Of a DNA stretch of 64,000 nucleotides, positions 11,151 through 57,172 are shown piece by piece (positions within the stretch are counted from its first letter, which is position 1; each line of letters begins with the position of its first letter). The stretch is from contig NZ_CP036273.1 in NCBI RefSeq assembly GCF_007747215.1, forward strand, positions 4,572,322-4,636,321. The letters run 5' to 3'. The notes under the pieces are model-generated. The model was not told where the DNA came from and did not search any database. It worked only from the letters and a program-made list of their open reading frames with translations. The position numbers and the translations under genes are program-made. Source of the DNA: Urbifossiella limnaea (GTDB lineage: Bacteria > Planctomycetota > Planctomycetia > Gemmatales > Gemmataceae).

Positions 11151-11154
11151 AGCC

Positions 11155-36269: not shown

Positions 36270-36399
36270 GGAGTCAAGTCTTCCGTGTAGCGTGCCTGCG
36301 TCAGTACGGTCTGGCGTTATCCAAACCGATCGTACCAAACCCGCCGCGGGCCTGCGAGTATTCGAGGACGCGAATGGCGTCGAGCGGGCTGTGGCGGAC

Positions 36400-36728
36400 A
36401 TGCTCTTGGGCGGCGGCGTGGCGGCGCGGGTGACGCCGTGGACGATCACGGCCGGGCACCGCACCGGATGGGGGACGGGAGGGTGCCGAAGAAGGACCTG
36501 GTCGGGGCGGTGCAAGCGGTGCTCGGGACGCTGCGGCTGAAGATCGCCCCGGGGCTGCCGCTGGCGGAGGTGCTGGCCAAGGAGTTGGAGTCGTTCCGGG
36601 TGAAGGTGACGGCGGACCGCAACGAGTCGTTCGAATCCTGGAGGGAGCGGGACCACGTCGACCTGGTGCTGGCCCTCGCCCTGGCCGTCTGGACCGGGGA
36701 GCGGCTCGGCCCACGACCGGCTCGACGC
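36400..36728 (+). pseudogene. phage terminase large subunit-like fragment
   Basis: From about 36480 the frame reads RVPKKDLVGAVQAVLGTLRL, LAEVLAKELESFRVKVTADR and ERDHVDLVLALALAVWTGER. That is the end of a terminase nuclease domain with the D-x-x-x-A-x-A tail. A preceding piece in another frame (LLGGGVAARVTPWTITAGH) belongs to the same protein, so there is a frameshift and the N-terminus is missing. Confidence 0.55.
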
Positions 36729-37090
36729 CTTCCTCTCGGCCTGGGTCGCCAGCCTTGACGAGGAGGACCGCAGGGGCTTCGGCACGCCACCCCACGATGT
36801 GATCTGGGTTCCGAGGGTGCAGACCACGCCGGAACGCAGGGGCGGTGTATGAAGGTGGTGATCCAGTGTGCCGGGCGGAAGCGGGGCGAGGCCGGGGTCG
36901 AAGTCGCCTTCGTCGCCTGCCCCGACCTATCTACGCCGGGAACTGCCGTACCCCGAGTCTGCCGACCCGATGATTCGGCGGGAGGCACTGGGACGTGGCG
37001 TGACGTGCTCATTTGGTACATCCAGCGGTACCGCCGGGAGGGAGCGAACCAGGACCATCTGCCCCAGCGGGTGACCTCTACACCCCCCGG

Positions 37091-37721: not shown

Positions 37722-39023
37722 TCAACCACCCGGTCGTTCCGCGTACCCCTTGCCCACCTTCTCCGCGATCAATCCGTCGGCTGCGGCCGCGGCCTTCTCG
37801 GGCGTTGGGAACGTCTTCGACTTCTGCTGCCCGGCGCTGCCGATTTTCCCCCACCGCGTCGTCACGTCCGCCCCGTCGGTCCACACCTCCCAGAACTTCG
37901 CCGCGCCGGCTTCGGTGAACTCGAACAACCGCCTCGCCGCTCCAGGGGAAGACGCCACGACCGGCGGGGCCGGTAACGGGTCGGGGTCCGCGGGCGGCGG
38001 TGAGGCGGCGGGAACCCCGCCGTCAGCCCGGAGCCCGACGTAGCTCGGGAACCGCGGGACGCCCCCGTCCGACAGCTCCTGGTAGCGGAACGTGATCGTG
38101 GACCCGACCGGCGGGGGGCTCTGCCGCTCCCGGTCCGTGAACCCGGTCCCGACGCTGAAGACCTTGCCGCTGGCCAGCCGCACCGTCAGCGCCCCGAGCC
38201 GGCCGGCGTGCCGCCCCTTCCCGGGCTCGTGCCCGACCACGACCGCCTCGTCGTCCCGGAAGCTCTTCACCTTCACCAGCGTGCCCGACCGCCCGGCCTC
38301 GTACCGCGACCCCGGCTCGCGGAGCATCAGCCCCTCGCCGCCGAGCCCCTCGACCCGTGCCAGCTCGGCCCGCAGGTGGTCGACGCCGCGGCACAGCTCG
38401 TGGGGGTGGAGGGCCGCGAACCCCGCCTTCCATTTGGCGAGGCCGTCCCGGAGGTACGCGACCCGCTCCTCGAACGCCCCGCCCGCGGCCGGGGCGTCGA
38501 ACACCAGGAACTGCACCTCCTTCCAGGTGTCCGGCTTGTCCTGCCGGCGGACGATGCCGACCGTCCGCTGGAACGCCTTCCGGGCGACCCACAGTTCGCC
38601 GTCGAGCGGCACGTCCGGGAGCCCCTCGACGAACCAGTTCGGGGCGTGGTAGAGGTTCCCCTGGCGGGAGACGAACTGCGTGCCGTCCCAGTACGCGCGG
38701 ACCCCGTCGAGCTTCTCGCTCATCCACCACCCGGCGGGGTCGCGGGCGTTGTCCCACGTCTCGGCGAGTAGGACCGGCGGGCCGGCGGCGTCGCCGTCGG
38801 CCGCGGCCGGCTTCTGCGGCCGCGCCGCGCCGACGCGGGCCTCCTCGGCGACGTCCCCGCGGAGCTTGCGGAGGTGCTTGCACGTCCGCCGCTCGATCGG
38901 CGTGGACTGGTTCCGCCACGCCGGGCAGGTGCAGGAGTAGACCCCGCCGACGTTCCGGAGCTGATACGGCTTCGCCCCGGACCCCTTCACCTCGAACGTC
39001 TCGCCGTCGGCCAGGTCGGGCAT
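37722..39023 (-). CDS. SWIM zinc finger-ATP-dependent DNA ligase-WGR fusion protein
   Basis: 433 aa from ATG 39023. A SWIM zinc finger at residues 31-50 (C31-x-C33...C48-x-H50) precedes an ATP-dependent ligase core. The core has motif I SEKLDGVRAYWDG (K104 as the adenylated Lys), VPLDGELWVARK, GLGGEGLMLREP and LVKVKSFRDDEAVVV, then an OB-fold (GALTVRLASGKVFSVGTG). A WGR domain ends the protein (FWEVWTDGADVTTRWGKIGS). The ligase would seal nicks; SWIM and WGR are nucleic-acid-binding add-ons. It is transcribed away from the retron-like operon, with about 210 bp between its start and the ncRNA. A SWIM protein also occurs in that operon, which suggests a functional link (inference). Confidence 0.9.
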   Translation of the reverse strand: MPDLADGETFEVKGSGAKPYQLRNVGGVYSCTCPAWRNQSTPIERRTCKHLRKLRGDVAEEARVGAARPQKPAAADGDAAGPPVLLAETWDNARDPAGWWMSEKLDGVRAYWDGTQFVSRQGNLYHAPNWFVEGLPDVPLDGELWVARKAFQRTVGIVRRQDKPDTWKEVQFLVFDAPAAGGAFEERVAYLRDGLAKWKAGFAALHPHELCRGVDHLRAELARVEGLGGEGLMLREPGSRYEAGRSGTLVKVKSFRDDEAVVVGHEPGKGRHAGRLGALTVRLASGKVFSVGTGFTDRERQSPPPVGSTITFRYQELSDGGVPRFPSYVGLRADGGVPAASPPPADPDPLPAPPVVASSPGAARRLFEFTEAGAAKFWEVWTDGADVTTRWGKIGSAGQQKSKTFPTPEKAAAAADGLIAEKVGKGYAERPGG

Positions 39024-39234
39024 GGTTGGGCCTCCGAGGAGGGATGGACGGGTGGGATGGAGTGGTGTGGAGAGTATCCCGCGAGCTGCCGCCACGCAAT
39101 CGGCGTAGCGGGGGGGCCGTGGCAGTGGCACTGGGCTCCGTTCGCCTGCTCCCGCTCGTGCGAATCCCGGCCCGAGTCGTTTTTCTCACTCCGTTGCTTG
39201 CACCCCGCGGTCGCCACGGGTAAAACTCGTCTCA

Positions 39235-39488
39235 CGTCGGTCGGAGGTCATCGGTTTAGCTCGGCTGCTCTGCAGCGGGGTGATGTTGCGTCACCCGAGC
39301 ACTTGGTCCGCCATGCGTCCCGAGGAAGGCTGTTCCAGACCCGCTATCGGACCGGACGGTGCCGGTGCCGGGCAGGCCTGGTTCAACCCCGCCGTTCGTG
39401 GTTCCTGCCCGGCACCGGCACCGTCCGGTCCGGCGGGTCCGTGAGCCTTCCACGTTCCAGGTCAGGTAGTAGACCGCCCCGACCGACG
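39235..39488 (+). ncRNA. candidate retron msr-msd non-coding RNA
   Basis: The outer inverted repeat (a1/a2-like) is CGTCGGTCGG at 39235-39244 with CCGACCGACG at 39479-39488, continued by GGTC (39246-39249) with GACC (39472-39475). Just inside a1 stands TTTAGC (candidate branch G at 39259), followed by small hairpins (GCTGC-TCT-GCAGC and GGGTGA-TGTTGCG-TCACCC). A very long stem comes next: GGAAGGCT/AGCCTTCC, GACCCGC/GCGGGTC and a perfect 28-bp arm (39349-39376 with 39404-39431) around a 27-base loop. This order (a1, branch G, short msr hairpins, long msd hairpin, a2) is the retron ncRNA plan. It lies at the head of an operon whose fourth gene is a retron-type RT. Confidence 0.6.
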
Positions 39489-39543
39489 GCCCGTGCGCGG
39501 CAACCCACCGCGCACGGGCGTTCTTCTCGACACCGGGGGTCTC

Positions 39544-42500
39544 GTGGCCGTCGCCCTCACCCTCGCCGACGTCCGCCGCGCGTGGGACGCCCGCGACCCC
39601 GAACTGCCGCGGCTCGTCGCCCGCCTCGCGGCCCAGCCCGACCCCCTGCCCGCCCAGCCACTCCGCGACGGGGCGGTCACCTTCGACACGTTCCGCACCC
39701 TCGGCCGCGACTACCAGTTCCGCCGCCGGCCGAGGGAGGAGCAGGCGCACCAGCGCGTCGAGTTGCTGAAGGCGCTCGAAGCCCCCGGCGCCGAGGTGCC
39801 GCTGCCCGACCGCCTCCGGCTGTACACCGTCGTCCTCGACCTGTGGGCCGCCGACGACCCGTTCGCCCGGTCGTGCCTGTTCGAGGTGATCGAGACGGTG
39901 CCGCTCGCCTACGGCCCGTGGCGCGCCCTGAAGCGCGTCTTCAAGGAGGCCGAGGCGAAGCCCGACACCGCGGTGTACGGCGCCCTCGCCGCCCGGTTCG
40001 ACGCCGAGGCGGCGCAGCACCGGCCCGGCCGCGAGGTGAGCGGCGCGACGCTCGCGTACCTGGCCCGGCGGGCGTGGCGGTTCCTCCGCCGCACCGGCGT
40101 GCAACTCCCCGCCACCTACCCCGACACCGCGGTGGACCTGCTCACCCGCTACCCGGCCGACACCAACTGGCGGAACACCTGGGTCGCCAACCACATTTTC
40201 TTCCACGACTCGAAGAAGTACGGCCGGTCGCGCTTCACCTTCGGCTACCGCGAGTACCCGTCGCCGGACCGGATCAAGGACCGGGCGTTCGGCGACCTGT
40301 GGAAGCGCAGCCCGCGGCCGCTGTTCACGCTGCTGGAGCGGGCGAAGGCCGACGCCGTCCGCGCGTTCGCCGCCGCCGGCCTGAAGGCCGACTTCCGCGC
40401 CGCGCTGCGCGACGTGGAGCCCGTGTGGGTGGTGCGCCTCGTCGGCGTGCGGAGCGCGGCGATCGACGAGTTCGTGGTGTGGCTCCTCCAGAACGTGCCG
40501 ACGTTCGAGCAGGCCGGGTTCCGCGCCAACGGCCTCCACGCCGCGGTGCTGCGGCTCCTCGACTCGCCGAGCAACGCCGCCCGCGTCTACGCCGCCGACT
40601 ACGCCCGCACCCACGCCCGCGACCTGACCGTGCCCGACCTCGTGCGGCTGGCCAACAACAGCCACGACCCAGTGCGGAAGCTGGCCCGCGACCTCCTCGG
40701 CGAGCGCGACCCGCGCAAGGACGTCGGCCTCGCGGCGTGGGGCGAGCTGCTCGACACCGAACACGGCCACGCCTACGCCGCGGAGGTGATCCCGAAGGCG
40801 TTCGGCGCCGCCGAGCTGACGCCCGCGTGGTTCGCCGATCGCCTCCTGACGCCGAGCGAGAAGGCGTTCCAGTTCGTGTGGAAGCTGCTGCCGAAGTTCC
40901 ACGCGCCGCCCGCGCTCGGGCCCGCGTTCTACTTCGGCGTGCTCAAGCGATTCGTCCGGGACGACACCGACTCCCGCCGCCGTCTCCACCTGATCGCGCA
41001 GGAACTGACCCGCTTTGACCTCGACACGCTCGACCGCGACTCCCTCCGCTGGCTGCTGCTCGCGCCTGCCGGGTGGTTGGTCGTGGGGGCCTGGATCGAC
41101 GGGGGGAAACTCAAGCCGGCGACACTTGGCATCGACTTTTGGAAGGCGCTCGCGTTCCACCCCGACTACGAGGCCGATCCGTGGCTCGCGGCGCTGCGGG
41201 CGTCCGGCCCGGAGTGGGCGGCGGAGCTGACCTTCCAGGAGGTAACATCCGGCGTTGTGCTGAACTGGATGCGCGACGTGCGCAAGTTCCCGCCGCTCGA
41301 CCTCGGGTTCGACTGGCTCATGAAGCTGGTGGCCCGCAGCGAGCCGATCTACCACGACTTCGCCGTCGATACGCTGATCCGCGCATTCGCGCCGGCCGAT
41401 TTCGCGCCACAGCAGGCCGCCCCGACCGCTGCGGCCCCCACGACCGTCGACCTGCAGAAGGCCTCCTTCCTGTTCACCGGCAAGCTGGCGTCGATGACGC
41501 GCGACGAGGCCGAGGCGAAGGTGAAGGGGGCGAACGGGACGGTCGCCGGGTCGGTGACGAAGAACCTGCACTACCTGGTCATCGGCGACGAGGGCTCGCC
41601 GCTGTACGGCCAGGGGAAGAAGGGGTCGAAGCAGGTCAAGGCGGAGCAGCTGAACGCGGCCGGCACGAACATCGGCATAATCTCGGAGACGCGGTTCCTG
41701 CAGATGCTCGTCGGGCAGCAGGTGGCGGCCACGGCCGACGCCACGCTCGCCGGCTGCGAGCGGTTGTGGGAACTGGCCGTCGCCCCCGGCCCCGCCGACG
41801 CGCCGGTCGGCAAGTTCGCCCGGCTGTACGTCCGCCGCCACCACCCGGTGATCGGCCAGCAGCTGACGGACCGCCCGGTCGATCCCGGCACGGAGGTACC
41901 GCTGGCGTTCCTGACGTGGGAGCGCGTGTCGCCTCTGTTCGCCGAGACGCGCCGCTCGCTCAGGGAGTTCGCACTCGACCTGGCCCGCTGGGAGTTCGCC
42001 CGCTGGAACCCCGACGTGGACGCGCTGGTGTGGATGAGCGAGTTGCCCTTCGCCGACGTGCGCCGGTTCGTGGCCCAGGCGCTGCTCGCCGCCGAAGCCA
42101 CGGAGACGCGCGCGTTCCGCCTCGACCCGGCGAAGCTGGAGCCGGCCGCGGCGTACCGCTTCTGCGAGGCCGCCGACCCGGAGACGCGGGCGCTCGGCAT
42201 GGAACTCATCAACCGCGTGCCGCGGTTCCGCGTGCCCGAGGAATTGTTCCGCCTGACCGAGAGCCCCGACCGCAAGGTGCGGGCGTTCGTCATCCGGGCG
42301 CTGTGGGCGGCGTACCGCGACCGCGGCGTGACGGCCGAGTGGAAGCCGCCGACCGCCCCAACGCCCGAGGTCGGCGCGAAGGCGAAGAAGGCCGCCGCGG
42401 AGCTGGCCGCGACCCGCGGCGACGGCGTGCCGGCCCGGCCGCCGCAGTGGCCCGCCGAACGGCCGACGCTCGCGCAATTCCTGCGCCGCGTGCTGTTCGA

Positions 42501-42810
42501 GGTGCCGCCGGGGCCGCCCGAGAAGACGGCGCAGGACGCGAGCGACGACGGCGACACCGCGGTGTCAGCGAAGAAGAAGCCGGAGGCGAGCGTGGTCGCA
42601 AACCGGCCGCTGCCGGCGCGGCGGGCGAAGCTCGACCTGATCGAGGTGATGCGCGACCTGGCGACCGAGGACCGCGCGTTCGCCGCCGGGGTGCTGCCGC
42701 TGCTGGACGAGTTCCTGCACTCGCGCGGGGCGAGCGAGCGGGCGGCGTGCCTCGTCGCCGTCACCCGCGTCCGCCACCGCCACCCCGAGCTGAAGGCGGT
42801 CGCGCCATGA
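39544..42810 (+). CDS. BRCT-domain protein, first gene of the retron-like operon
   Basis: 1088 aa from GTG 39544 (GGGGG lies about 6 nt upstream; a GTG at 39493 is also possible). The protein is largely helical-repeat-like (VALTLADVRRAWDARDPELP at the start). Near residues 639-720 there is a BRCT domain of the NAD-ligase/RFC type: KASFLFTGKLASMTRDEAEA, VAGSVTKNLHYLVIGDEGSP, ISETRFLQML. BRCT domains bind DNA ends or phospho-peptides. The stop overlaps the next start as ATGA, implying translational coupling. It begins 56 nt after the candidate msr-msd RNA. I know no named family for the whole protein. Confidence 0.85.
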   Translation: MAVALTLADVRRAWDARDPELPRLVARLAAQPDPLPAQPLRDGAVTFDTFRTLGRDYQFRRRPREEQAHQRVELLKALEAPGAEVPLPDRLRLYTVVLDLWAADDPFARSCLFEVIETVPLAYGPWRALKRVFKEAEAKPDTAVYGALAARFDAEAAQHRPGREVSGATLAYLARRAWRFLRRTGVQLPATYPDTAVDLLTRYPADTNWRNTWVANHIFFHDSKKYGRSRFTFGYREYPSPDRIKDRAFGDLWKRSPRPLFTLLERAKADAVRAFAAAGLKADFRAALRDVEPVWVVRLVGVRSAAIDEFVVWLLQNVPTFEQAGFRANGLHAAVLRLLDSPSNAARVYAADYARTHARDLTVPDLVRLANNSHDPVRKLARDLLGERDPRKDVGLAAWGELLDTEHGHAYAAEVIPKAFGAAELTPAWFADRLLTPSEKAFQFVWKLLPKFHAPPALGPAFYFGVLKRFVRDDTDSRRRLHLIAQELTRFDLDTLDRDSLRWLLLAPAGWLVVGAWIDGGKLKPATLGIDFWKALAFHPDYEADPWLAALRASGPEWAAELTFQEVTSGVVLNWMRDVRKFPPLDLGFDWLMKLVARSEPIYHDFAVDTLIRAFAPADFAPQQAAPTAAAPTTVDLQKASFLFTGKLASMTRDEAEAKVKGANGTVAGSVTKNLHYLVIGDEGSPLYGQGKKGSKQVKAEQLNAAGTNIGIISETRFLQMLVGQQVAATADATLAGCERLWELAVAPGPADAPVGKFARLYVRRHHPVIGQQLTDRPVDPGTEVPLAFLTWERVSPLFAETRRSLREFALDLARWEFARWNPDVDALVWMSELPFADVRRFVAQALLAAEATETRAFRLDPAKLEPAAAYRFCEAADPETRALGMELINRVPRFRVPEELFRLTESPDRKVRAFVIRALWAAYRDRGVTAEWKPPTAPTPEVGAKAKKAAAELAATRGDGVPARPPQWPAERPTLAQFLRRVLFEVPPGPPEKTAQDASDDGDTAVSAKKKPEASVVANRPLPARRAKLDLIEVMRDLATEDRAFAAGVLPLLDEFLHSRGASERAACLVAVTRVRHRHPELKAVAP

Positions 42811-45800
42811 CGCCGGAGATGCAGGACCTGATCCGCCGGCGCATCGAGCAGATGCGCGCCATGCTCGCCAACCTGCCGGCGGAGCAGCGGGCGGTGGTGG
42901 AGGCGCAGATCGAGTCGCTGGGGGCGAAGTTCGGCAGCGCCGCGTCGGAGACGGCGGCAGTGCTGTTCGGGAAGCCGAGTGGCGGCACCGGCGAGAAGCA
43001 CCTGACGTACCGCGGGCACTTCCGCGCCGCGGCCGGCGCCGGCGGGGCGCTTGTGTTCGTCACCGAGCACCCCGAGGGGCAGCCGACCGCGCTGTTCCGC
43101 CTCGACGCCGACGCGCTGAACCTGACCGAGCAGCCGCTGCCGTGCGGCGGCGTCGCGCTCGCGGTCGACGGCGATCACGTCTACGTCGCCGGCACCGACC
43201 GCCGCGTCTACGTCGCCGCCGGCGCGACGCCGAAGCCGCTCGCTGGGCCGTTCGACGCGCCGCTCGCCGCGCTCGTCGTCGCGGCCGGCGACCGCCTCGC
43301 GGTGCTGAGCGGCGCGAACCTCCACCTCGTGTCGCGGGCCGACGGTAAGGTTCTCCAGACGCTCGACCTCCCGGACCGCGGGACGTGCCTCGCCGCCGAC
43401 CGCTCCGGGCAGTGGCTCGCCGCCGGCACCGAGAAGGGCACCGTGGTCGTGTTCGACGGCCAGGACCGCGCCGACTTCGAGCGCTCGGACGCCGAGCGGC
43501 TCCACGACGGCGCCGTCACGGCGTTGTTGTTCGAGCCGGACGATCTCCGCTTCTTCTCGGCCGGCGCCGACCACAAGCTCCTCAGCACGCACGCCCGCGG
43601 CCGCCTCGAACCCGAGGACAAGGGACGCGACAACAACCACGAAGACATCGTCACCGCGATGCTCCTCACGCCGACCGGCGACCGCCTGATCACAGGCGCG
43701 CGCGATGCGGCGCTGAAGACGTGGCCGCGCGCCGGCGCCGTCAAGCCGGCCGCGCTCAAGGACGGCGTCGGGAAGGTCGTCGCGCTCGCGGTCGTGACGG
43801 TCTACAACCAGCCGCGCCTGGCCGTGGCCTGCGACGACGACACCATGCGCTTCGTCGAGCTCGACGCCGACGGCCGGTTCGGCGCCGCCGTCGGCCGGGT
43901 GTACGGGGCGGTCGATCGGGCGAAGCACGAGGCCGGGCAGCACGACCCGAAGCGGCGCGAGAAGGCGCTGCGCGACGCCGCGGCGTGGGCCGACGTCGCC
44001 GGCCTCGACCTCATCGCCGCCCGCCTCGACGCCGACGTCGACCACCAGCTGCGGCTGCTGGCCGCGCAACTCCTCGCCGCGTCGCCGAACCCGCGGGCCG
44101 TGGCGCTGCTCGAAGCCGCGGTGCGCCACAAGGACGAGAAGGTCCGCGTCGAGGCGTTCCGCGGGTTGCAGACGCACCTCGGGGCCGACACCCTCAAGCC
44201 GATCGACCTGGCGCTGACGGCCGGCAAGCCGGACGTGGGCGTGCTGGCGGTGGCGGCACTCGGGCCGCTGGCGGCGCGCGACGACCAGGCGCTCGCCCGC
44301 CTCACCGACGCGCTCGACCACGCCGCCTGGGACGTGCGGAAGGCGGCGCTCGCAGCCCTCGAAGCCGTCTTCCCCGCGCCGTCGCCGGAAGCCGGGCTGG
44401 CGGCGCTCGGGTCGAAGCACGGCGACGTACGCGCCGCGGCGCTGGTGCGGTTCTTCGAGCGCGGCCAGCTCGCCGACCCGCGTGCGACCGCCGCCGTCCG
44501 CCGCCGCCTGGAGGACGACGATTCCGGCGTCCGCCGCGTCGCCTTCCTCGTCACCGTGCTCGCGCGGCCGACCCTGGCGCGGGCGCTGCGCGCGGCCGAC
44601 GACGAGCTCCACCGCCAGCTGGCCGAGCTCGACAAGGCCGAGAAGCCGGCTGCGGCCGCCGCCGCGCTCGACGCGGCCGACTACGACGTGCCGCTCCAGG
44701 CGACGGCGGCGCGGGCGGTGGACACCTGCCTCCGCGGGGCGCGGGCGCTGGCGACGCTCGGCGACGCGCGGGCGTTCGGCCTCCTGATCCAGCTCAGCCG
44801 CGAGGAGAGCGCCGCGGCGCGGGTGGACGTGTGCCGGGCGCTCGCCACGCTCAACGACCCGCGGGCCGCGGCGCGGCTCCGGTCGCTTCTCTTCGACCCG
44901 GACACGTCGGTCCGCGACGCCGCGTACACGGCGCTGGCACGGATCGAGGCGGCGGCGCCGCTGGCCGTCGCCGAGTCGGGGCTGACGGCCGCGGCCGAGG
45001 ACGTGCGCCGCCGCGGGCTGCAAACGCTGGTCGAGGTGGTGCGCCGCGACCCGCCGGGCGGCCCGCCCGACGCGGCAACGTCACCCGCGTGGGCGCTGCT
45101 GGCGCGGGCGCTCGACGACGACGCGCCGGCGGTGCGGACGGAGGCGTGGAAGGCGGTGCTGAAGTTCGGCGCCGGCGAGGCCGGGCTCCGCTTCGCCCGC
45201 GGCTCGGCGAACGCCGACGTGCGCCGCGAGGTGCTGACCGAGGCCGCGGCCGCGCCGGACGAGCCGTGGGCGCCGGCGTTCGTCCTCGACTTCTTCAACG
45301 ACCCGGACCCGGCGCTGCGGGCCGAGGCGTTCGCGCATGCGACGCGGAAGACGAAGGAGTTGACGCCACTGTCGGCGGCGCTGGCGTCGCGGTTCGCCGA
45401 CACGCGCCGCGCCGGGATCGACGCGCTGGAGAAGAAGCACTCGAAGCCGGCGCAAGCGTTGCTCGTGTGGGCGCTGGCGGACACCGACCGTGACAACCGG
45501 GTACGAGCCCTCAACATCCTGATCGACGAGGACGCGCGAGACTCGATCGCCGAGGCGCTGTCGGCCGTACATGACGACATTCGGGCCAATGCTGCGGCCG
45601 CACTCGCCCGACAGGGTCACCCGGCCGCCCTCGCCCCGCTGCTGGCGCTGGCCGGCGAGCCAGAGCCCGCAGTGTCGGAGCGCGTGGGGAGGTGGAAGGA
45701 AGTGGTCGAAGCCGCACTCGGCGGGTTGGAGGAACTGGCCGACCCGGCCGCGCTCCCGGTCATCCGCCCACTCCTGGAGAGCAATCACCCGACGATCCGC

Positions 45801-48800
45801 GCAGCGGCGGCCGTGGCCCTCGCGGCAGCGACCCGGCCCGGTACCGCCGACGTACTCCGCGCCGCGATGTCTCACCCCGACACGGTCGTGCGCCACGCGG
45901 CTACGCTCGGGCTGGCGCGGCTCGGAGACGCGTCAGTCGTCGGTCGCCTGCTCGCGTCCGATCTGCCCCCCGGGCCGGTGCTGCGCGCCGCGGTCGCGCT
46001 CGGGACGTCCGGCGAACGTGTCGTGGCGGTGATGCTCGACCACGCGAACGCGACGACACGCACGTCGGCGCTTCTCGTCGAGATGCTGTCAGAGCTCCGC
46101 GGCCAGTCGGGCGACGCGCGCCGCTGCCTGGAGTGTCTCTCGGCGAAGGCGCCGCGGACGCGGCTCGCCGGGGCGCGAGGCTTGGAACTGTACCCCGACC
46201 CGGCGGCTTTCCGCTCATTCGTCGTGGAACTGGTAAACGACCGCGGCGACGAGGAGGCGTGGAAGATCCCGGCCGAGACGGTGGAAACTCTGGCCGCCGT
46301 CCTGGTCGGTGGGTCACCAGCACTCCGCGCCCGCGCGGTCGGTCAGTTCCAGTGGCTCGACCACAAAGAACAGGTGGGATGGAATTACCAGTGGGAGGTG
46401 TTCGCCAAACGCTTCGCTGCCGACATCGCCGCCGCGGAAGTCACCGCGCCGCCGCGGACCGCGTCGCGGCTGAGTGCGGCCGAGGCGAAGGAGCTGGCGT
46501 TCGGCGCGTACATCGGGCTCGTCCGCGAGCAGGGGAGCGCGACGGCGACGCCGGCGGTGGCGCGGGTGCGGCAGACGGCGCTGGCGCGGGTGCTCGCGGT
46601 CGCCGCCGCCGACGCCGCGTACCGCCCGGCCGCGTTCCCGGTGCTGATGCAGGCGCTCGCCGATCCGAACCAGCCGGTCCGCTTCCAGGCGTTCGACCAG
46701 CTACTGGCGCTCGGCTTCGCCCGCACCCGCCTCGGCGCCGAGGCGCTGGAGGCCGGCCACACCGACCTCGGCGTGAAGGGGCTCGAACTCCTCTCCGGAG
46801 GCACCTCGACCGCCGACGGCGACGCGGTACTGGAGCGCGTGCTGCTTACCCGCACCGACGACCTGGCGGCCGAGGCGGCGAAGCTGCTCGCGGCCCGGCG
46901 CGGGCTGGTGCCGGTGGCCGCGGCCGCGCTCGCCGCCGCGCACGACCCGCTGCGCCGGCAGGCGGTGCAGTGGCTCGCCGGCGAGTACGACCAGGCGGCG
47001 GACGCGCGGCAGGCGCTTCGGGCGGCACTCAGGTCGCGCTACCGGTCGGTGCGCGAGGCGGCGGCGTTCGAGCTGGCGGCGAAGCGCGACGCGGCGGCGT
47101 TCGACGCGCTCGTCGCCCTCCTCCGCGACGCCGGCCTCCCCGGCCAGCAGACGCGGCTGATCGAGGCGATCCAGCAGTTGAACGACCCGCGCGCCGCGGC
47201 CGCGTTCCTATACCGGATCGAGACCGACCCCGCCGGCACGGCGCCGGTCTTCGTGCTGTTCACGGCCGCCGGCGCGGCGCGGCGGCCCGAAGTCGCCGAC
47301 CGCCTGTTCGACCTCGCGGCCCGCCGGAAGGAGTGGCGAACCGCGGCGTTCGACGCGCTGCTCGTCACCAGCGGGTTCGACCAGCTGATCGACGACCCGA
47401 GCGACGAGCGGCCGGACCGCACGTGGGAGGAAAAGCAGCACCCGCGCCACCCGGCGCTGCTGGCGCGGCTGCTCGACCGGGCCGTCGCCGCGGGGGCGGA
47501 CGTGTTCGTGGCGAAGCTCCTCCATGCGGCGCGCTGGTGCCGCGGGCCGGAAGTCGATGAGCCGCTCGCACTGCTGACCGCGAACCCCGACCCGGAGCTG
47601 CGGCGCACGGCCGTCGAGGCGCTGGGCTGGCGGTTCAAGCACCGCGGCGCCCCGGCCGAGGCATTACTTCGGGCGTTGAAGCACAAGGACGCGACGACGC
47701 AGTTCCTCGCCGCCGAAGGGCTCGCCCGCGGCGGCCGCGCCGACGGCATCAGCATCCTCCTCTCGGCGATCGAGTACCTCGACGACGTGGGGGAGCGGGC
47801 TCGCGCCGTACTCGCGCTCGGCGAGCTCGGCGACGCACGCGCTCTCGACGTGCTCCTCCGCCTCGCCGGCGAGGACGGCCACGCGCTCCAGGAGCCGGCG
47901 GCGGAGGCGATAGGCCACCTGCGCCGCTCGCCCGACGCGGAGAAGATCGGCCGCCTCCTCGAACGGCTGGCGAAGGGGAGCGGCGGCGTGGCGTTGCGGG
48001 CGCTCGTCGGCCTGCGTTGGTTCGACTCGGCGAGCGGCTGGCAGCTGATCCGCCGGCGCGCGACCGACCGGCAGAACCTCATGGTCCGGCTCGGCGCCGT
48101 CCCGCAGCTCGGCTTCAAGGACGAGCCGGCGAACCGCGACCTCCTCCTGAAGCTGCTGCGAACCGGTCACGAACTCGACGTGTTGCAAGCGGCCTTCCGC
48201 GCCGCCCGCCGCCTGTTCGGCGCCGGCTCGCTGGAGCCGCACTACGCCCTCGTCCAGCACGAGGCGGCGGCGGACGCGCTCGCCGACGCCGACGCGTTCG
48301 GCGAGGACGTGATGGGGGCCGTGACCGAGCGCGGCGACGTGCTCCGCCTCCTCGACATCTTCCCGCGGTGCGGCCCGGAGGTTCAGGCGTCGCTGGAGGC
48401 CAGCCTCCTCTCGCGCGCCGCAATCCCGACGGCGGACGCGCGGGCGGCGCTGGCGAGTACGAACGAAGGCACCGTCCGCCTCGCCGCGCGGCTGCTCGGA
48501 AACGCCGGGGCGCCCGACGCCGCGACGACCGCGGCGCTCGCCGCCGCGCTGACGAAGTGGACGGCGACGTGGGACGAGCGGCGGACGAAGCCGCCCGCCG
48601 GCCCGGTGACGATGTACCCGCCCTACACCACCGTCCGCCCCGACGCGACCGACGAGTCCGTCGCCGCGGCGATGGCACCGACCGCCGACGCGCTCCGCGC
48701 GCTGGTGTGGGCCGCGTGCCGGCTCGGTGCGACGGATCGCGTCGCCGAACTCGCCGTGTCGCGGCCCGACGATCCGCTGTTCCGCCCGGTCCGGCACGAC

Positions 48801-49310
48801 GCCGTGCGGGCGCTCGCGGCGGCCGCGGCGAACGAGGCGGTGCTCGCCGCGATGGACGCGCTCGCCCGCGGCAACGACCCGGTCGTGCGCGAGAGCGCCG
48901 CCGCGGTGCTGACGCGCCACGACCCCGCCCGCGCCGCGGCGCTACTGCAACCGCTTGCGTCCGACCGGCCGAGCTTCACGCGGCTGGTCGCGGGGCGCGG
49001 GCTGCCCGCCGCGGCGGCCTTCGTGCGCGGAGCCGTCGCGCAGGTCCACACGCTTGCGGTGGCGCTGCCGGCGGTGGTCGCGGCGAAGGACGTGGCGGCG
49101 CTCGCGGCGGTGGCGAAGGACCGCAAGAAGCCGGAGGCGGCGCGGCTCGGGGCGATCGAGGGGCTGGGCGTCATGGCGGCGCCGCCCGCCGAGGCGGTGC
49201 TGGCCGAGATGGGGGCGGCCGACGGCGACGACGAGGACGTGCGGAAGGCGGCGTGGCGGGCGCTGCGGCGGTCGAAGCGGGCGCGGCACGCCGCGGAGGC
49301 GACGGCATGA
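42807..49310 (+). CDS. 2167-aa WD40 propeller-HEAT repeat protein
   Basis: ATG 42807 overlaps the upstream stop (ATGA). A short helical start (MTPEMQDLIRRRIEQMRAML) leads to a beta-propeller of WD40-like blades (about 60-400; GQWLAAGTEKGTVVVFDGQD, DAALKTWPRAG). About 1700 residues of HEAT repeats follow (A-x-x-A-L-x-x-L-x-D-P-x-x-x-V-R pattern, e.g. AARLRSLLFDPDTSVRDAAY). Such giant alpha-solenoids usually act as scaffolds or sensors. No enzymatic motif was seen. The frame is open upstream to 41073, but that part is a shadow of the BRCT gene. The stop again overlaps the next start. Confidence 0.9.
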   Translation: MTPEMQDLIRRRIEQMRAMLANLPAEQRAVVEAQIESLGAKFGSAASETAAVLFGKPSGGTGEKHLTYRGHFRAAAGAGGALVFVTEHPEGQPTALFRLDADALNLTEQPLPCGGVALAVDGDHVYVAGTDRRVYVAAGATPKPLAGPFDAPLAALVVAAGDRLAVLSGANLHLVSRADGKVLQTLDLPDRGTCLAADRSGQWLAAGTEKGTVVVFDGQDRADFERSDAERLHDGAVTALLFEPDDLRFFSAGADHKLLSTHARGRLEPEDKGRDNNHEDIVTAMLLTPTGDRLITGARDAALKTWPRAGAVKPAALKDGVGKVVALAVVTVYNQPRLAVACDDDTMRFVELDADGRFGAAVGRVYGAVDRAKHEAGQHDPKRREKALRDAAAWADVAGLDLIAARLDADVDHQLRLLAAQLLAASPNPRAVALLEAAVRHKDEKVRVEAFRGLQTHLGADTLKPIDLALTAGKPDVGVLAVAALGPLAARDDQALARLTDALDHAAWDVRKAALAALEAVFPAPSPEAGLAALGSKHGDVRAAALVRFFERGQLADPRATAAVRRRLEDDDSGVRRVAFLVTVLARPTLARALRAADDELHRQLAELDKAEKPAAAAAALDAADYDVPLQATAARAVDTCLRGARALATLGDARAFGLLIQLSREESAAARVDVCRALATLNDPRAAARLRSLLFDPDTSVRDAAYTALARIEAAAPLAVAESGLTAAAEDVRRRGLQTLVEVVRRDPPGGPPDAATSPAWALLARALDDDAPAVRTEAWKAVLKFGAGEAGLRFARGSANADVRREVLTEAAAAPDEPWAPAFVLDFFNDPDPALRAEAFAHATRKTKELTPLSAALASRFADTRRAGIDALEKKHSKPAQALLVWALADTDRDNRVRALNILIDEDARDSIAEALSAVHDDIRANAAAALARQGHPAALAPLLALAGEPEPAVSERVGRWKEVVEAALGGLEELADPAALPVIRPLLESNHPTIRAAAAVALAAATRPGTADVLRAAMSHPDTVVRHAATLGLARLGDASVVGRLLASDLPPGPVLRAAVALGTSGERVVAVMLDHANATTRTSALLVEMLSELRGQSGDARRCLECLSAKAPRTRLAGARGLELYPDPAAFRSFVVELVNDRGDEEAWKIPAETVETLAAVLVGGSPALRARAVGQFQWLDHKEQVGWNYQWEVFAKRFAADIAAAEVTAPPRTASRLSAAEAKELAFGAYIGLVREQGSATATPAVARVRQTALARVLAVAAADAAYRPAAFPVLMQALADPNQPVRFQAFDQLLALGFARTRLGAEALEAGHTDLGVKGLELLSGGTSTADGDAVLERVLLTRTDDLAAEAAKLLAARRGLVPVAAAALAAAHDPLRRQAVQWLAGEYDQAADARQALRAALRSRYRSVREAAAFELAAKRDAAAFDALVALLRDAGLPGQQTRLIEAIQQLNDPRAAAAFLYRIETDPAGTAPVFVLFTAAGAARRPEVADRLFDLAARRKEWRTAAFDALLVTSGFDQLIDDPSDERPDRTWEEKQHPRHPALLARLLDRAVAAGADVFVAKLLHAARWCRGPEVDEPLALLTANPDPELRRTAVEALGWRFKHRGAPAEALLRALKHKDATTQFLAAEGLARGGRADGISILLSAIEYLDDVGERARAVLALGELGDARALDVLLRLAGEDGHALQEPAAEAIGHLRRSPDAEKIGRLLERLAKGSGGVALRALVGLRWFDSASGWQLIRRRATDRQNLMVRLGAVPQLGFKDEPANRDLLLKLLRTGHELDVLQAAFRAARRLFGAGSLEPHYALVQHEAAADALADADAFGEDVMGAVTERGDVLRLLDIFPRCGPEVQASLEASLLSRAAIPTADARAALASTNEGTVRLAARLLGNAGAPDAATTAALAAALTKWTATWDERRTKPPAGPVTMYPPYTTVRPDATDESVAAAMAPTADALRALVWAACRLGATDRVAELAVSRPDDPLFRPVRHDAVRALAAAAANEAVLAAMDALARGNDPVVRESAAAVLTRHDPARAAALLQPLASDRPSFTRLVAGRGLPAAAAFVRGAVAQVHTLAVALPAVVAAKDVAALAAVAKDRKKPEAARLGAIEGLGVMAAPPAEAVLAEMGAADGDDEDVRKAAWRALRRSKRARHAAEATA

Positions 49311-51154
49311 ACACCACCACCGAAGCGCCGGCCGACGCCGCCGCCACGCCGGCCCACCTCGCCTACGCCGGCGCCAGCCGCGTCGCCACCGCCGGCAACG
49401 CCGCCGACGTGGAGCTGTACGGCAACCTCGGCCGCCCGCCGGTCCGCTTCGCCGCGCACGTCAAGGACCCGCTCCGCTTCCGCGAGGCGCTGTCGGCGCT
49501 GTACGCCGTCGTCGGGTCCGACTACCGCTACGTCCCGAAGGACCGCACCGCGTACCTCGCCTACCTGCGGCTGAAGCGCGACACCGCCGGGCAGAGCGTG
49601 TGGAAGGCGCAGCAGGCGTACTTCGCGTGGCTCCTCCGCAACGACCCGCTCGCCTACTGCATCCTCGACCCCGTCGTCACCGTCCACCCCGACCAGGTGA
49701 TGTTCGAGGTGTTCGGCAAGGACGAGAGCACCTACGCCTGCCTCGCGTTCGACCGGACGGCGTTCGACAACGAGGCCGCCGAGCCGGCGTGCGGGACGAC
49801 AAACATCGACTTCAGCGCGGCGCTGTACGACGGCGTGCAGCGCGTCCGCGGGTACAAGACAACGCGCCTGACGATCGGCGCCGAGGGCGTGGCCGTCGCC
49901 GCGGGCGAGCGCGAGGTGATCGAGAAGCAGATCCGCGTGCCGGACTCGTGGCTCCGCGGCTTCCTCCAGGTGCAGTCGGCGGCGACCCTGCCGTACGACC
50001 ACTGCCGCCTCGCCCCGGTGGACGTGTACAACCTTCTCCGCTCGCTCCGCATGAACGCCGACCAAAAGGGGAAGCGGCGCGGGCTGCGGTTCGAGCTCGT
50101 CCCGGCCGAGCCGCCGCGGCTGATCGTCGAGCCGCGCGAGACGGTGTTGCCGGCGACCGGCGACGTGTTCCGCGGCAAGGCGGCGCGGGTGGTCCGCGTG
50201 TGGGGCCGCCGCCGGCTCATGACCATCCGCCGGCTTATGCCGTTCGTCGAGGGCGTGGACGTGTATCTGCTCGGCAGCGGCCTGCCGAGCTTCTGGGTGT
50301 TCCGCGCCGGTGCGATCACGCTGACCCTCGGCCTCACCGGGTTCACCGGGTCGAACTGGTCGCAGGCGCTCGGCTTCGACCTGCTCCTGCCGCGCAAGAC
50401 GCAGACGCCGGAGGCGCTGACGAAGGTGGTCGGCGCCCTCGCCGACGGGGTGTGGGCGGCGGACGCGAAGGCGATCGCGGCGCGGACCGGGGTGAAGGGC
50501 TCGGCGCTACTCGAAACGCTCCAACTCGGCTGCCAGCAGGGGCAACTGATGTTCGACATCGCGACCGGCAAGTACCGCCTCCGCCCGCTCGCCGCCGGCC
50601 CGCTCGACCTCGCCCGCCTCCAGTTCCGCAACGCGCGCGAGAAGGTGGCGTTCGACCTGATGACCCGGCGCGGCGCGGTGCGGGTCGTCTCCGAGAACCG
50701 CGTCGCCGGCCAGGGGCTGGAACTGACCGGCGAGGTGTCGGTGGCCGAGGACAAGCGAGACTACCGCCCGCAGATGCTCCTCGCCGACGAGGGGCAGGTG
50801 AAGCGGGCGGTGTGCACGTGCGCCGCGTTCCGCAAGCAGGGGCTGAAGGGCGGGCCGTGCGTCCACTTGATCGCTCTGCGGTTGGCCCACGCCGACCGCG
50901 AGGCGAAGCGGGCCGCGACCGACGACGCGGTGACGTTCGAGACGCGGGCGTTCACCCGCCGCGCCGGCGGGGCGGAGACGGTGGTGCAGGTGTCGCTGGA
51001 GCGTCGCCGGCTCCGCCTTCGCTGGGGCGAGGCGGGGAAGCCGATGCGGGTGCAGGCGCTGCGGTTCAACGACGAGGCCGCGGCCCGCGGGGCGTACCTC
51101 GCACGGGTGTCGGAGTTGCAGGCGAAGGGCTACCTGGACGCCGTGGCGGAGTGA
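49307..51154 (+). CDS. SWIM zinc finger protein
   Basis: 615 aa from ATG 49307, overlapping the previous stop (ATGA). Most of the protein is a mixed alpha/beta region I do not recognise (LRFREALSALYAVVGSDYRY; RVWGRRRLMTIRRLMPFVEG). A C-terminal SWIM finger reads C503-x-C505...C518-x-H520 (CTCAAFRKQGLKGGPCVH), then a basic strand-rich tail. SWIM fingers bind nucleic acid or protein. The same type of finger opens the divergent ligase, which ties the two transcription units together by domain content. It ends 36 nt before the reverse transcriptase gene. Confidence 0.9.
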   Translation: MNTTTEAPADAAATPAHLAYAGASRVATAGNAADVELYGNLGRPPVRFAAHVKDPLRFREALSALYAVVGSDYRYVPKDRTAYLAYLRLKRDTAGQSVWKAQQAYFAWLLRNDPLAYCILDPVVTVHPDQVMFEVFGKDESTYACLAFDRTAFDNEAAEPACGTTNIDFSAALYDGVQRVRGYKTTRLTIGAEGVAVAAGEREVIEKQIRVPDSWLRGFLQVQSAATLPYDHCRLAPVDVYNLLRSLRMNADQKGKRRGLRFELVPAEPPRLIVEPRETVLPATGDVFRGKAARVVRVWGRRRLMTIRRLMPFVEGVDVYLLGSGLPSFWVFRAGAITLTLGLTGFTGSNWSQALGFDLLLPRKTQTPEALTKVVGALADGVWAADAKAIAARTGVKGSALLETLQLGCQQGQLMFDIATGKYRLRPLAAGPLDLARLQFRNAREKVAFDLMTRRGAVRVVSENRVAGQGLELTGEVSVAEDKRDYRPQMLLADEGQVKRAVCTCAAFRKQGLKGGPCVHLIALRLAHADREAKRAATDDAVTFETRAFTRRAGGAETVVQVSLERRRLRLRWGEAGKPMRVQALRFNDEAAARGAYLARVSELQAKGYLDAVAE

Positions 51155-51190
51155 GGTCGGGTTCCACCGAGGCGCTTTTCGGACTTGTAC

Positions 51191-52477
51191 ATGACCACGC
51201 CGCGCACCGACCCGCTCACCCTCTGGCGGCAGATCGACCAGGCCGGCGGCGTCCGCGCCTTCGTCGACGCGCAGCTGCGCGAGCGCGGGTTCCTCGTCGA
51301 GCGGCGCGACGCGGACAAGATGTCCGACCGCGAGAAGGACCAGTACAAGACGGCGCTCAAGCAGGAGGCCGCCGAGCGCAAGACGCTGGCCCGCGAGGCG
51401 TGGAAGGCGTACCAGGCGGCCCACATCGTCCACCTCGGCGACGGCATCTACTGGTCGGACGACGCCACGCCCGACAAGTGGGACACGCCGAACAGCGAGG
51501 AGCGCGCCGCCGAGAACGAACTGCCGCCGCTCGACTCGCCGGCGCAGCTGGCCGAAGCGCTCGGGGTCACCGTCGCGCAGCTCCGCGGCCTAACGTACCA
51601 CCGCGACGCGGCCACGTCGCTCCACTACTGCCGGTTCGCCATCCCGAAGCGCGACGGCTCCGAGCGGCCCATCTGGGCGCCGCTACCGCGGCTCAAGGCG
51701 GCTCAGGCGTGGGTGCTGCACAACGTCGTCGAGCGGCTGCCGGTCCACGGCGCGGCGCACGGGTTCCTCGCCGGCCGCTCGACGCTCACGAACGCGGCCG
51801 TCCACACGAACGCGAACCTCGTCCTGAAGATGGACGTGAAGGAGTTCTTCCCGACGGTGACGTGGCGGCGGGTGAAGGGCGTGTTCCGCCGCGCCGGCTA
51901 CCGCGAGCGCGTCGCCACGCTGCTGGCGCTGCTCTGCACCGAGTCGCCGCGCGAGGTCGTTCAACTCGACGGCACGACGTACTACGTGAGCCTCGGACCG
52001 CGCTGCCTGCCGCAGGGCGCGCCGACCAGCCCGGCGCTGACGAACGCCCTGTGCCTGCGGCTCGACCGCCGGCTCACGGGGCTGGCGGCGAAGCTCGGCT
52101 GGCGATACACCCGCTACGCCGACGACCTGACGTTCAGCCTGCCCGCGGCGCACGTCGGCCCGCCGCGACTCGGGGCGATGATCGGCTGCGTGACGCGAGT
52201 CGTCGAGACGGAAGGCTTTCGGATCCACCCGGAGAAGACGCGCGTGGCGCGGCCCGGTGGGCGGCAGGCGGTGACCGGGCTGGTGGTGAACGGCGACGCC
52301 GCCCCGCGCGCCCCGCGGGCGCTGCGGCGACAACTGCGGGCGGCACTGCACAACCGCAAGGTCGGGAAGCCACGGCCGGACGGCGATACGGAGGCGCAGC
52401 TGCACGGGCTGGCCGCCTACATCTATATGACCGACCCAGTACTCGGCCGGAAGTTGTTGGCCGAAATCGACGGTTGA
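51191..52477 (+). CDS. retron-type reverse transcriptase (Mx162-like)
   Basis: 428 aa from ATG 51191. An N-terminal extension of about 130 residues precedes the polymerase: VRAFVDAQLRERGFLVERRD, then EAWKAYQAAHIVHLGDGIYW. RT blocks follow in order: HYCRFAIPKRDGSERPIWAP, AAHGFLAGRSTLTNAAVHTN, LKMDVKEFFPTVTWRRVKGV, RCLPQGAPTSPALTN, the catalytic RYADDLTFS (Y309-A-D-D312), FRIHPEKTRVARPGGRQAVT-GLVVN. I recognise close resemblance to myxobacterial retron RTs such as Mx162, including the N-terminal extension and the VTGLVVN tail. Only 36 nt separate it from the SWIM gene, so the msr-msd RNA usually found just upstream is absent; the candidate is at 39235-39488. Confidence 0.92.
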   Translation: MTTPRTDPLTLWRQIDQAGGVRAFVDAQLRERGFLVERRDADKMSDREKDQYKTALKQEAAERKTLAREAWKAYQAAHIVHLGDGIYWSDDATPDKWDTPNSEERAAENELPPLDSPAQLAEALGVTVAQLRGLTYHRDAATSLHYCRFAIPKRDGSERPIWAPLPRLKAAQAWVLHNVVERLPVHGAAHGFLAGRSTLTNAAVHTNANLVLKMDVKEFFPTVTWRRVKGVFRRAGYRERVATLLALLCTESPREVVQLDGTTYYVSLGPRCLPQGAPTSPALTNALCLRLDRRLTGLAAKLGWRYTRYADDLTFSLPAAHVGPPRLGAMIGCVTRVVETEGFRIHPEKTRVARPGGRQAVTGLVVNGDAAPRAPRALRRQLRAALHNRKVGKPRPDGDTEAQLHGLAAYIYMTDPVLGRKLLAEIDG

Positions 52478-52479
52478 TC

Positions 52480-52677
52480 ATGTCACGCGACACCAGAGAT
52501 AAAAGCGATCGCCACGCCCTCACCGCGGAAGGCATGGTCCTATGCAACCCGCGGGACCGGGAAGCGGCCCACCGGGCCGAGATGGAGGACATCGCCACCG
52601 ACGACCCGGCGGCGGTGACGTGCCTGAAGTGCCGAGACCTCCTCCACAAGCTCTCGCGTGAGTCGCGTGGACGGTGA
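52480..52677 (+). CDS. small Cys-containing protein, last gene of the retron-like operon
   Basis: 65 aa. ATG 52480 starts 3 nt after the RT stop, so coupled translation is likely. The protein is charged and has three cysteines (VLCNPRDREAAHRAEMEDIA, then AVTCLKCRDLL), possibly a partial zinc site. I recognise no family. Its tight spacing supports membership in the operon. The 52678-52833 stretch after it has no recognised gene. Confidence 0.65.
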   Translation: MSRDTRDKSDRHALTAEGMVLCNPRDREAAHRAEMEDIATDDPAAVTCLKCRDLLHKLSRESRGR

Positions 52678-54498: not shown

Positions 54499-55572
54499 TA
54501 CGCCTTACGCAGTTATCGGGTCTGGCAGACGGTAGAGCGGGTGTTCGAGGTACGCGCGGACGGCGTCCCGGATGACGGCCCACTTGGCGGCGAACCAACT
54601 CACCCCGGTGGTGAACCGATGGTACTCCAGCCGGACGAACGCGCGGATCGCACAACCGATGTGGTTCCGCTGCCCGCGCGCCGCCCGGACCTGGCACCGC
54701 TCGACCCCGGTGTACTGCTTCAGCCCCCGGTGGTACTCCTCGATCCCCCACGACAACTCGCCGAACACGAGCCGCATCGGCTCGTCCATCCCGAGGTCGT
54801 TGGTGGCCCAGTGCGTCGTGTCGCCGTCTGGGGCGACCACCCGAAACACCCGCACCTCCCCGTACCCCGGCACCCACACCACCGTCCCCGACCCGGCGAT
54901 CGGCTGGCGGTCCAACGCCATCGTCTCCCCGTGGTCGATTCGCACCTTCCGGTTCCCCTTGAACCGGGTCACGAACACCCACCCGAAGTCCCGGACCCGC
55001 TTGAGGTTCTCGACGCTCGCATACCACCCGTCGAACAGCACCGCCCGGGGGCGGAGGCCCCGGTCCCGGGCCGCCACCAGCAGGTCCGCGAAGTGGTCGT
55101 TCTTGGTCTTCCCGTCCCCGTCCTTGTGGTACACCCGGTAGTCGCACGGGTACACCCGATCCCCGTCCGACCACAGGGCGGTGATCAGGTTGATCCCCCG
55201 GACCACGGCGTGGTGGTTCCCGGACCAGTGGTGGGCGACCAGCCCGATGTGCTTGGCCCGCGGCTTGTCCAGGGTCGAGTCGTCGATGACCAGCACCCCG
55301 GTCCCCCGCCCGATCAGCGGCCGGACCTCGGCCCACAGGGCCTCGGGGTCGGGCTCGAGGCGGTGGAGGAGTCGGGTGAACGAGTCGTGGGCCGGTGCCG
55401 CCGGGCGATCCGGCTGGACCCGGGCGGCCTCGGTGGCCGAGACCACGACCGGCGAGGCGATGAGAAACTGGATGTAGTCCTCGGCGGTCGAGCGGGCGGC
55501 GTTCATCCCGCCGAACCTAACCGCCGGAACGGGGTTGCGCAAGATCAACCTCGGTCAACTGCGTAAGGCGTA
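54499..55572 (-). mobile_element. IS701-like insertion sequence
   Basis: Perfect 16-bp inverted repeats (TACGCCTTACGCAGTT at 54499-54514, complement at 55557-55572). A 5-bp direct repeat ATGGA flanks it (54494-54498 and 55573-55577). It contains one intact transposase gene. Confidence 0.88.
54505..55506 (-). CDS. IS701-like (DDE_5) transposase
   Basis: 333 aa from ATG 55506; the in-frame ATG at 55548 lies close to the element end. Blocks seen are GVLVIDDSTLDKPRAKHIGL (first Asp), WYASVENLKRVRDFGWVFVT with the preceding LFDG (second Asp), and SWGIEEYHRGLKQYTGVERC (Glu). These are the acidic positions of the IS701/DDE_5 group. The frame is intact and the gene nearly fills the element. Confidence 0.9.
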   Translation of the reverse strand: MNAARSTAEDYIQFLIASPVVVSATEAARVQPDRPAAPAHDSFTRLLHRLEPDPEALWAEVRPLIGRGTGVLVIDDSTLDKPRAKHIGLVAHHWSGNHHAVVRGINLITALWSDGDRVYPCDYRVYHKDGDGKTKNDHFADLLVAARDRGLRPRAVLFDGWYASVENLKRVRDFGWVFVTRFKGNRKVRIDHGETMALDRQPIAGSGTVVWVPGYGEVRVFRVVAPDGDTTHWATNDLGMDEPMRLVFGELSWGIEEYHRGLKQYTGVERCQVRAARGQRNHIGCAIRAFVRLEYHRFTTGVSWFAAKWAVIRDAVRAYLEHPLYRLPDPITA

Positions 55573-56812: not shown

Positions 56813-57105
56813 TTCGACTGGGTGGCGAAGAACGCCGTGGCTTTTTTTAGGATGTCGCGCTCCATCTCCAGCCGCTTCACGTCGGCCCGGAGGCGGCGCA
56901 GTTCTTCCTCGACGGGGGTGAGGTGCCCCGATCCCGGGAAGGCGTCGGCCCCCTTCTTGAGGACCGCCTTCTTCCAGTCGTGGAGCCGGTTCTCGGTGAC
57001 CCCGAGGCGGCGGGCGACCTCGGCCACGGACAGCTTCTGCTCGGTGATCATCCTCACGGCCTGGAGCTTGAACTCCGGCGTGTAGACCTTGCGGGAACCG
57101 GCCAT
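56809..57105 (-). CDS. IS3-family OrfA (copy A)
   Basis: 98 aa. The helix-turn-helix KVYTPEFKLQAVRMITEQKL, SVAEVARRLGVTENRLHDWK is followed by a leucine-zipper-like coiled coil (EEELRRLRADVKRLEMERDI). It binds the IS ends and supports OrfAB dimerisation, as known for the family. It ends just past the slippery run shared with OrfB. Confidence 0.92.
   Translation of the reverse strand: MAGSRKVYTPEFKLQAVRMITEQKLSVAEVARRLGVTENRLHDWKKAVLKKGADAFPGSGHLTPVEEELRRLRADVKRLEMERDILKKATAFFATQSK
56841..56848 (-). promoter_or_regulatory. programmed -1 frameshift site of IS3 copy A
   Basis: On the minus strand AAAAAAAG lies near the end of orfA, phased as A-AAA-AAG, the standard slippery signal for making OrfAB. 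The same run occurs at 60353-60360 and 63430-63437 in the other two IS3 copies. Confidence 0.7.
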
Positions 57106-57172
57106 CGGTGTGTCTCCTCGTGATTAGAGCTTACACCGCTTTCCCGCTGTCCACGATCCGTGGGGAACTTCA

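Follow-up and report, generated by a model that had tools for sequence, protein, structure and literature searches.

Retrons are known as bacterial antiviral elements and are understood as one reverse transcriptase (RT) acting with one non-coding RNA (ncRNA). The a1/a2 repeats and a TTAGC-like motif are features of retron-Eco1, retron-Eco2 and the type IX retrons, which to our knowledge have one ncRNA per RT. Thirteen retron types were defined by Mestre et al. (2020, as cited in PMC9252829 and PMC12548924). The locus analysed here occupies positions 39235-52677 of a 64,000-nucleotide stretch of Urbifossiella limnaea DNA (the window; positions 4572322-4636321 of NZ_CP036273.1, the one 7.8-Mb contig of this genome, which its relatives place in or near Gemmataceae). 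It shares with retrons of solved mechanism such as retron-Eco1, retron-Eco2 and type IX (PMC12405507, PMC13405049) an RT, an msr-msd RNA and accessory proteins; unlike this locus, those retrons have no clamp-like partner, and no cassette exchange was described for them in the papers found. Its closest counterpart is retron type XIII, as represented by the PADLOC-DB models RT_XIII, SWIM_XIII, HEAT-ARM_XIII and WGR_XIII, with which it has in common the RT, a SWIM protein, two HEAT/ARM proteins and the gene order. Compared through those models, it differs in having an ncRNA of 221 nt at the head of the operon, a hypervariable, exchanged stem within that RNA and, in relatives, 10-30 dispersed copies. 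The exchanged hairpin and the dispersed copies are the most unusual feature of the system and lay outside the view of a preliminary description of this DNA. A perfectly paired hairpin exchanged as a cassette between genomes and present, in related bacteria, in 10-30 scattered copies appears to have no earlier description: no paper on a type XIII ncRNA, or on multi-copy or hypervariable retron RNA, was found, a weak negative given that subscription literature fell outside the search.

A type XIII retron with a structured RNA at the operon head

The open reading frames (ORFs) of the operon are as follows.

39544-42810, plus strand: BRCT-HEAT protein, 1088 aa, GTG start; HEAT-ARM_XIII (PDLC02921), E = 0; BRCT at 641-693
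42807-49310, plus strand: giant WD40-HEAT protein, 2167 aa; HEAT-ARM_XIII (PDLC02919), E = 0; HEAT_2 and WD40
49307-51154, plus strand: SWIM protein, 615 aa; SWIM_XIII, E = 1e-183; structure model with fold match
51191-52477, plus strand: type XIII retron RT, 428 aa; RT_XIII, E = 3e-160; NAAVH, YADD, VTG
52480-52677, plus strand: small Cys-containing ORF, 65 aa; outside the conserved system

The coordinates bear out the same-strand, five-gene layout that had been described, with ATGA overlaps at the BRCT-HEAT/WD40-HEAT and WD40-HEAT/SWIM junctions, a 36-nt gap between the SWIM and RT genes and a 2-nt gap before the small ORF. Coding capacity is supported by third-codon GC content and by homologues. 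The RT is of the retron lineage (RVT_1) and carries the retron motifs NAxxH (as NAAVH), VTG and an intact YADD (at 52115), as had been noted; no close plasmid or phage relative of it was found. A separate WGR gene is lacking, and the WGR_XIII profile matched residues 98-391 of the BRCT-HEAT protein in part (4e-37). Judged by the RT_XIII, SWIM_XIII and HEAT-ARM_XIII matches, the operon is a retron of the already described type XIII. The preliminary description had known of no retron type with this gene set, a claim that therefore fails, as PADLOC-DB places all four proteins (RT, SWIM and the two HEAT-ARM proteins) under that type.

The order BRCT-HEAT, WD40-HEAT, SWIM, RT was found at 42 loci in five phyla (Planctomycetota, Myxococcota, Gammaproteobacteria, Verrucomicrobiota and Acidobacteriota). 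The proposal of a retron with accessory genes between RNA and RT held, on motifs and the RT_XIII match, for the BRCT-HEAT, WD40-HEAT and SWIM genes, and failed for the small Cys protein. This ORF had no family match and no tblastn match at any related locus, being missing even next to an RT of 92% identity, and was ruled out as a component of the system.

The RNA was delimited with an alignment of the ncRNAs of 24 relatives (A1; 221-223 nt) and a covariance model (R1). Its elements are listed below.

39235-39244, plus strand: a1 repeat (CGTCGGTCGG), 10/10 inverted repeat with 39479-39488; conserved in a related locus (L085)
39253-39473, plus strand: core msr-msd ncRNA, 221 nt; alignment A1, model R1 at 228.7 bits, covariation
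39255-39260, plus strand: TTTAGC motif with a candidate branching G at 39259; AGC near-invariant in A1
39260-39301, plus strand: two msr hairpins (helices 1 and 2) with compensatory changes
39321-39331, plus strand: outer msd stem, 5' side, pairing with 39444-39454 (helix 3, 99.6% paired)
39348-39376, plus strand: hypervariable 29-bp stem, 5' arm, 100% complementary to 39404-39432
39377-39403, plus strand: 27-nt loop, conserved among relatives
39404-39432, plus strand: hypervariable stem, 3' arm, inverted-repeat partner of 39348-39376
39444-39454, plus strand: outer msd stem, 3' side; inverted repeat and covariation
39479-39488, plus strand: a2 repeat, pairing with a1

The structured non-coding region reported at the operon head was confirmed by its folding (z = -8.15 against shuffles), the perfect 29-bp inverted repeat, the a1/a2 repeats and covariation. 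Rfam gave no match at gathering scores. By sequence and covariation, an msr-msd ncRNA with a1/a2 repeats and a hairpin suited to reverse transcription is present. In A1, near-invariance and covariation are seen in the msr, the outer stem, the loop and the 3' flank: excluding the variable stem, 97% of cells are paired, with 115 two-sided changes (39 in shuffled alignments) and a covariation score of 0.45 (0.19 shuffled, at most 0.09 when slid). The 29-bp stem, by contrast with these parts, keeps its complementarity in every A1 relative with an unrelated sequence. In planctomycetes, Thiothrix relatives, a verrucomicrobial metagenome-assembled genome (MAG) and others, the BRCT gene is preceded by this RNA, which in Uabimicrobium follows the RT instead.

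At L085, L086 and one copy of L087, the hairpin was collapsed or broken by Ns in short-read MAG assemblies; such collapse of perfect hairpins means that these RNAs are under-counted in MAGs. Assembly artefact was rejected as an explanation of the stems: they are unbroken in genomes of one contig, and independent genomes carry identical ones. On an Aureispira contig (L071), the 1.1 kb ahead of a related RT contain three long, perfect hairpins, possibly a tandem array.

Dispersed copies of the RNA in Gemmata-like genomes

Searching with model R1, followed by a pattern census in which a reversed-pattern control returned zero, revealed 24 copies of the ncRNA in genome G051, 30 in G052 (one contig), 10 in G053, 18 in G054, 12 in G065 and 10 in G069; low-copy genomes held two (G048 and G094) or one (G136). 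The census genomes carry one close type XIII RT each. Across 95 genomes of the family, RNA and RT occurred together in 29 and were both missing from 62, with two RNA-only genomes (weak matches) and two RT-only genomes (Fisher p = 9e-20).

The 94 copies of G051, G052, G054, G065 and G069 were analysed further. In 82 of them the stem reaches 26 bp or more with no more than one mismatch, and in 70 it is perfect; 51 of these 70 combine exactly 29 bp with a 27-nt loop. Complementarity between a1 and a2 is copy-specific and has been kept (7.95 nt, against 6.22 nt when the repeats were re-dealt; z = 12). The dispersed copies are intergenic and often lie next to convergent genes. One gene family adjoins 13 of the 94 copies (L157-L228), in 11 cases downstream and convergent, and a stretch of about 240 bp near L178 and L183, probably the C-terminal domain of that family, occurs at dozens of sites per genome. 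A clean empty site was not recovered at either of these two loci: the orthologous place of L183 in G051 still holds msr-like sequence, and at that of L178 in G054 the ncRNA and the neighbouring gene are missing together, so that neither site yielded an insertion boundary. Carriage of the ncRNA by viruses was rejected, since the sole IMG/VR match is 100% identical to a copy from G051 and so provides no evidence for it.

Replacement of the hairpin as a unit

Orthologous sites were compared among G051, G052 and G054, requiring both flanks to be at least 300 nt long and more than 80% identical. In the resulting 18 pairs, which are not all independent (some loci are common to the three species), the stems were either 93-100% identical (10 pairs) or 23-55% identical (8 pairs, including the operon-head copy), with no intermediates and a mean of 35% for unrelated stems. 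The change has sharp boundaries. Replaced pairs had an identity of 0.99 in the 20 nt preceding the stem and 0.96 in the 20 nt following it, but 0.30 across the stem itself and 0.81 for the loop; in retained pairs the corresponding values were 0.98, 0.98, 0.98 and 0.94 (in this set L169/L209, out of register on the 3' side, was left out and L200/L221 and L179/L197 were added).

Stems also recur at unrelated places. Stem and loop are identical or nearly so in copies that are not orthologous and differ in their msr (L170/L218, L184/L186, L161/L205, and both L159 and L199 with L211), and some stems from the operon head of one species have counterparts among the dispersed copies of another (L096/L243, 28/29; L095/L219; L090/L231). 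Limnoglobus roseus has two tandem ncRNAs with identical flanks and loop and unrelated stems. The bimodal orthologues, the stems shared between unrelated loci and this tandem pair together indicate that it is the whole hairpin that moves. Compensated drift cannot account for the pattern, from which recombination or templated replacement is inferred.

Diversity-generating retroelements likewise tie an RT to rapid, localised diversification; those elements, however, mutate adenines in a protein gene, whereas here a whole non-coding hairpin is replaced and remains perfectly paired. Fixed-length variable modules, constant flanks and a shared module pool recall CRISPR arrays and the cassettes of mating-type switching and antigenic variation, but no array, adaptation genes or protospacer was found here, and the modules are palindromic hairpins in a retron RNA.

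Internal symmetry of the stems

In 80 non-redundant stems, internal dyads had a mean arm of 5.3, compared with 3.9 in shuffled sequences and 3.7 in a Markov control (z = 12-15); examples are CCTCATCAGTGAGG, TCGAACAAGTTCGA and GGGGAATTCCCC. The end bases of the stem are conserved (C..G) and its interior is free. As judged from these sequences, the best fit for the stem is an operator-like duplex for dimeric DNA-binding proteins. A 17-nt stem core matched one IMG/VR contig, which is about the chance level for a collection of that size.

A predicted clamp-like fold and a second lineage of the same design

The model of the SWIM protein (pLDDT 80, pTM 0.79) aligned over residues 47-354 with PCNA (2ix2_B; Z = 15.5, 215 of 245 residues, root-mean-square deviation 2.8, 9-13% identity), and a two-domain, PCNA-like sliding-clamp fold is predicted for this part. 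Unlike PCNA, the clamp part is fused to further domains: a probable winged helix, followed by the SWIM zinc motif, and four terminal strands with a helix whose order in the model resembles WGR; of these, the winged-helix and WGR-like assignments are weaker. The AlphaFold model of the BRCT-HEAT protein is an alpha-solenoid, all-helical except for one BRCT domain; on inspection without a fold search, no enzyme-like domain was seen.

A second type XIII retron (L002; contig positions 4998415-4999539; RT_XIII 2e-154, SWIM_XIII 4e-66) is present in the source genome. Its RNA, located between the SWIM and RT genes, has 19-nt a1/a2 repeats and a 27-bp perfect hairpin, and its relatives again combine conserved flanks with unrelated perfect stems. 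This repetition of the design makes hypervariable stems look like a property of type XIII.

Proposed function and competing explanations

The most likely explanation, to which a probability of roughly 0.38 is given, is a retron with interchangeable duplex baits, which a clamp/HEAT complex reads and which exchange among the copies renews. It is favoured by the type XIII match, the RT motifs, the covariation of the RNA, the perfect but unrelated stems, their dispersal and the co-occurrence with the RT; by the a1/a2 pairing, the bimodal stems with sharp boundaries, the shared hairpins and the dyads; and by the PCNA-like fold, the defence-island neighbour described below and the L002 lineage. More specifically, and only tentatively, a variable receptor repertoire is proposed. 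The single RT would reverse-transcribe operon-borne and dispersed RNAs in trans, turning a genome-wide library into msDNAs that differ only in the duplex stem, each stem acting as operator-like bait for one dimeric DNA-binding protein (phage repressor, recombinase, nuclease or methylase). Both HEAT proteins would serve as scaffolds on which the msDNA-RT complexes are kept together with the clamp-like/winged-helix/SWIM/WGR protein, and capture of a stem by an invader protein, or loss of the stem, would break the complex and set off an abortive response. Recombination through the conserved flanks may carry cassettes from one ncRNA locus to another, perhaps with msDNA as the donor, and this movement would renew an evolvable bait panel.

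If this is correct, a retron serving dozens of dispersed ncRNAs, with modules swapped at fixed boundaries, would represent a novel means of diversifying an immune sensor and perhaps a natural form of msDNA-templated genome editing. The question of what an msDNA senses becomes testable through the stem DNA, and the clamp-like fold offers a structural lead for a type in which no catalytic effector has been recognised.

Several observations weigh against the bait interpretation. The genome containing the window has a single copy of this ncRNA, and no catalytic effector domain was recognised among the operon proteins. In Myxococcota that carry these four genes, the RNA model found no match ahead of the BRCT gene, so not every member of type XIII has this RNA. 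The dyads could stem from the mechanism that makes the stems and not from protein binding. Searches for the origin of the stems returned only E = 8 matches for 53 stems against phages (Gemmata phages being hardly sampled) and none for 31 stems against plasmids; the stems' own flanks showed no excess of matching host DNA, and two stems, that of the window included, have no second site in their own genomes at up to 3 mismatches. On these results, phage or plasmid spacers and copies of nearby or other host DNA were both rejected as the source of the stems.

Operator-like dyads, and identical stems kept across species at several loci, would also suit msDNA stems that titrate host transcription factors as decoys in a regulatory network and not in defence. 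This is considered unlikely, as the two stems just mentioned lack a second genome copy (real operators, however, could be more degenerate), the operon adjoins a predicted anti-phage helicase and its type belongs to a defence database.

It is similarly unlikely that the RNAs are mobile or selfish palindromes, whether MITE- or REPIN-like or retrotransposing retron RNAs, which spread between genes while the RT merely copies them. Up to 30 intergenic, scattered copies per genome, frequently beside convergent genes, and stems common to several loci fit such an element; the full msr, the outer stem and the copy-specific a1/a2 repeats are nevertheless kept, operon heads hold persistent single copies across phyla, and exchange is limited to the inner hairpin, at fixed boundaries within a conserved RNA.

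An adaptive system in which the stems are captured invader DNA, held as spacer-like memory, is decidedly improbable. Constant stem length, the conserved C..G ends and wholesale replacement are compatible with it, but the phage and plasmid searches gave no significant match, two stems lack a second site in the genomes searched, different species have stems in common, and random captured DNA would lack dyad symmetry beyond chance. Least probable of all, and already disfavoured, is a type XIII retron of the ordinary kind, with an msd stem that serves only as a structural ruler and drifts freely while paired, since the exact length with free sequence and the matched two-arm substitutions of retained stems, which speak for it, are outweighed by the lack of intermediates between at least 93% and chance identity, the Limnoglobus tandem pair, the identical stems at unrelated loci and the dyads far above shuffled levels.

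Genomic neighbourhood

Upstream of the operon lies a helicase-like gene.

30924-36827, minus strand: helicase-like protein, 1967 aa; ProA (1264 bits) and Hhe (851 bits), both under curated cut-offs

This protein is predicted to be, probably, a divergent anti-phage defence protein of the Hhe/ProA kind, which places the operon in a putative defence island. Between the two, divergent to the retron (37722-39131, minus strand), is a gene for a protein with an ATP-dependent DNA ligase domain, an OB fold, a C-terminal WGR domain and an N-terminal SWIM-like motif (CxC..CxH). Its adjacency to the retron is not conserved, as the nearest match in a relative (L033) has another position with respect to the RT.

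Insertion sequences are abundant in the window, which contains two IS4-like transposase ORFs of the same length and composition (5739-7196 and 11752-13209, minus strand), an IS110 (8971-11370), an IS1380 (28663-30264) and an IS701 element (54505-55554). Two 104-aa ORFs of equal base composition (56809-57123 and 63398-63712, minus strand) are apparently a repeat.
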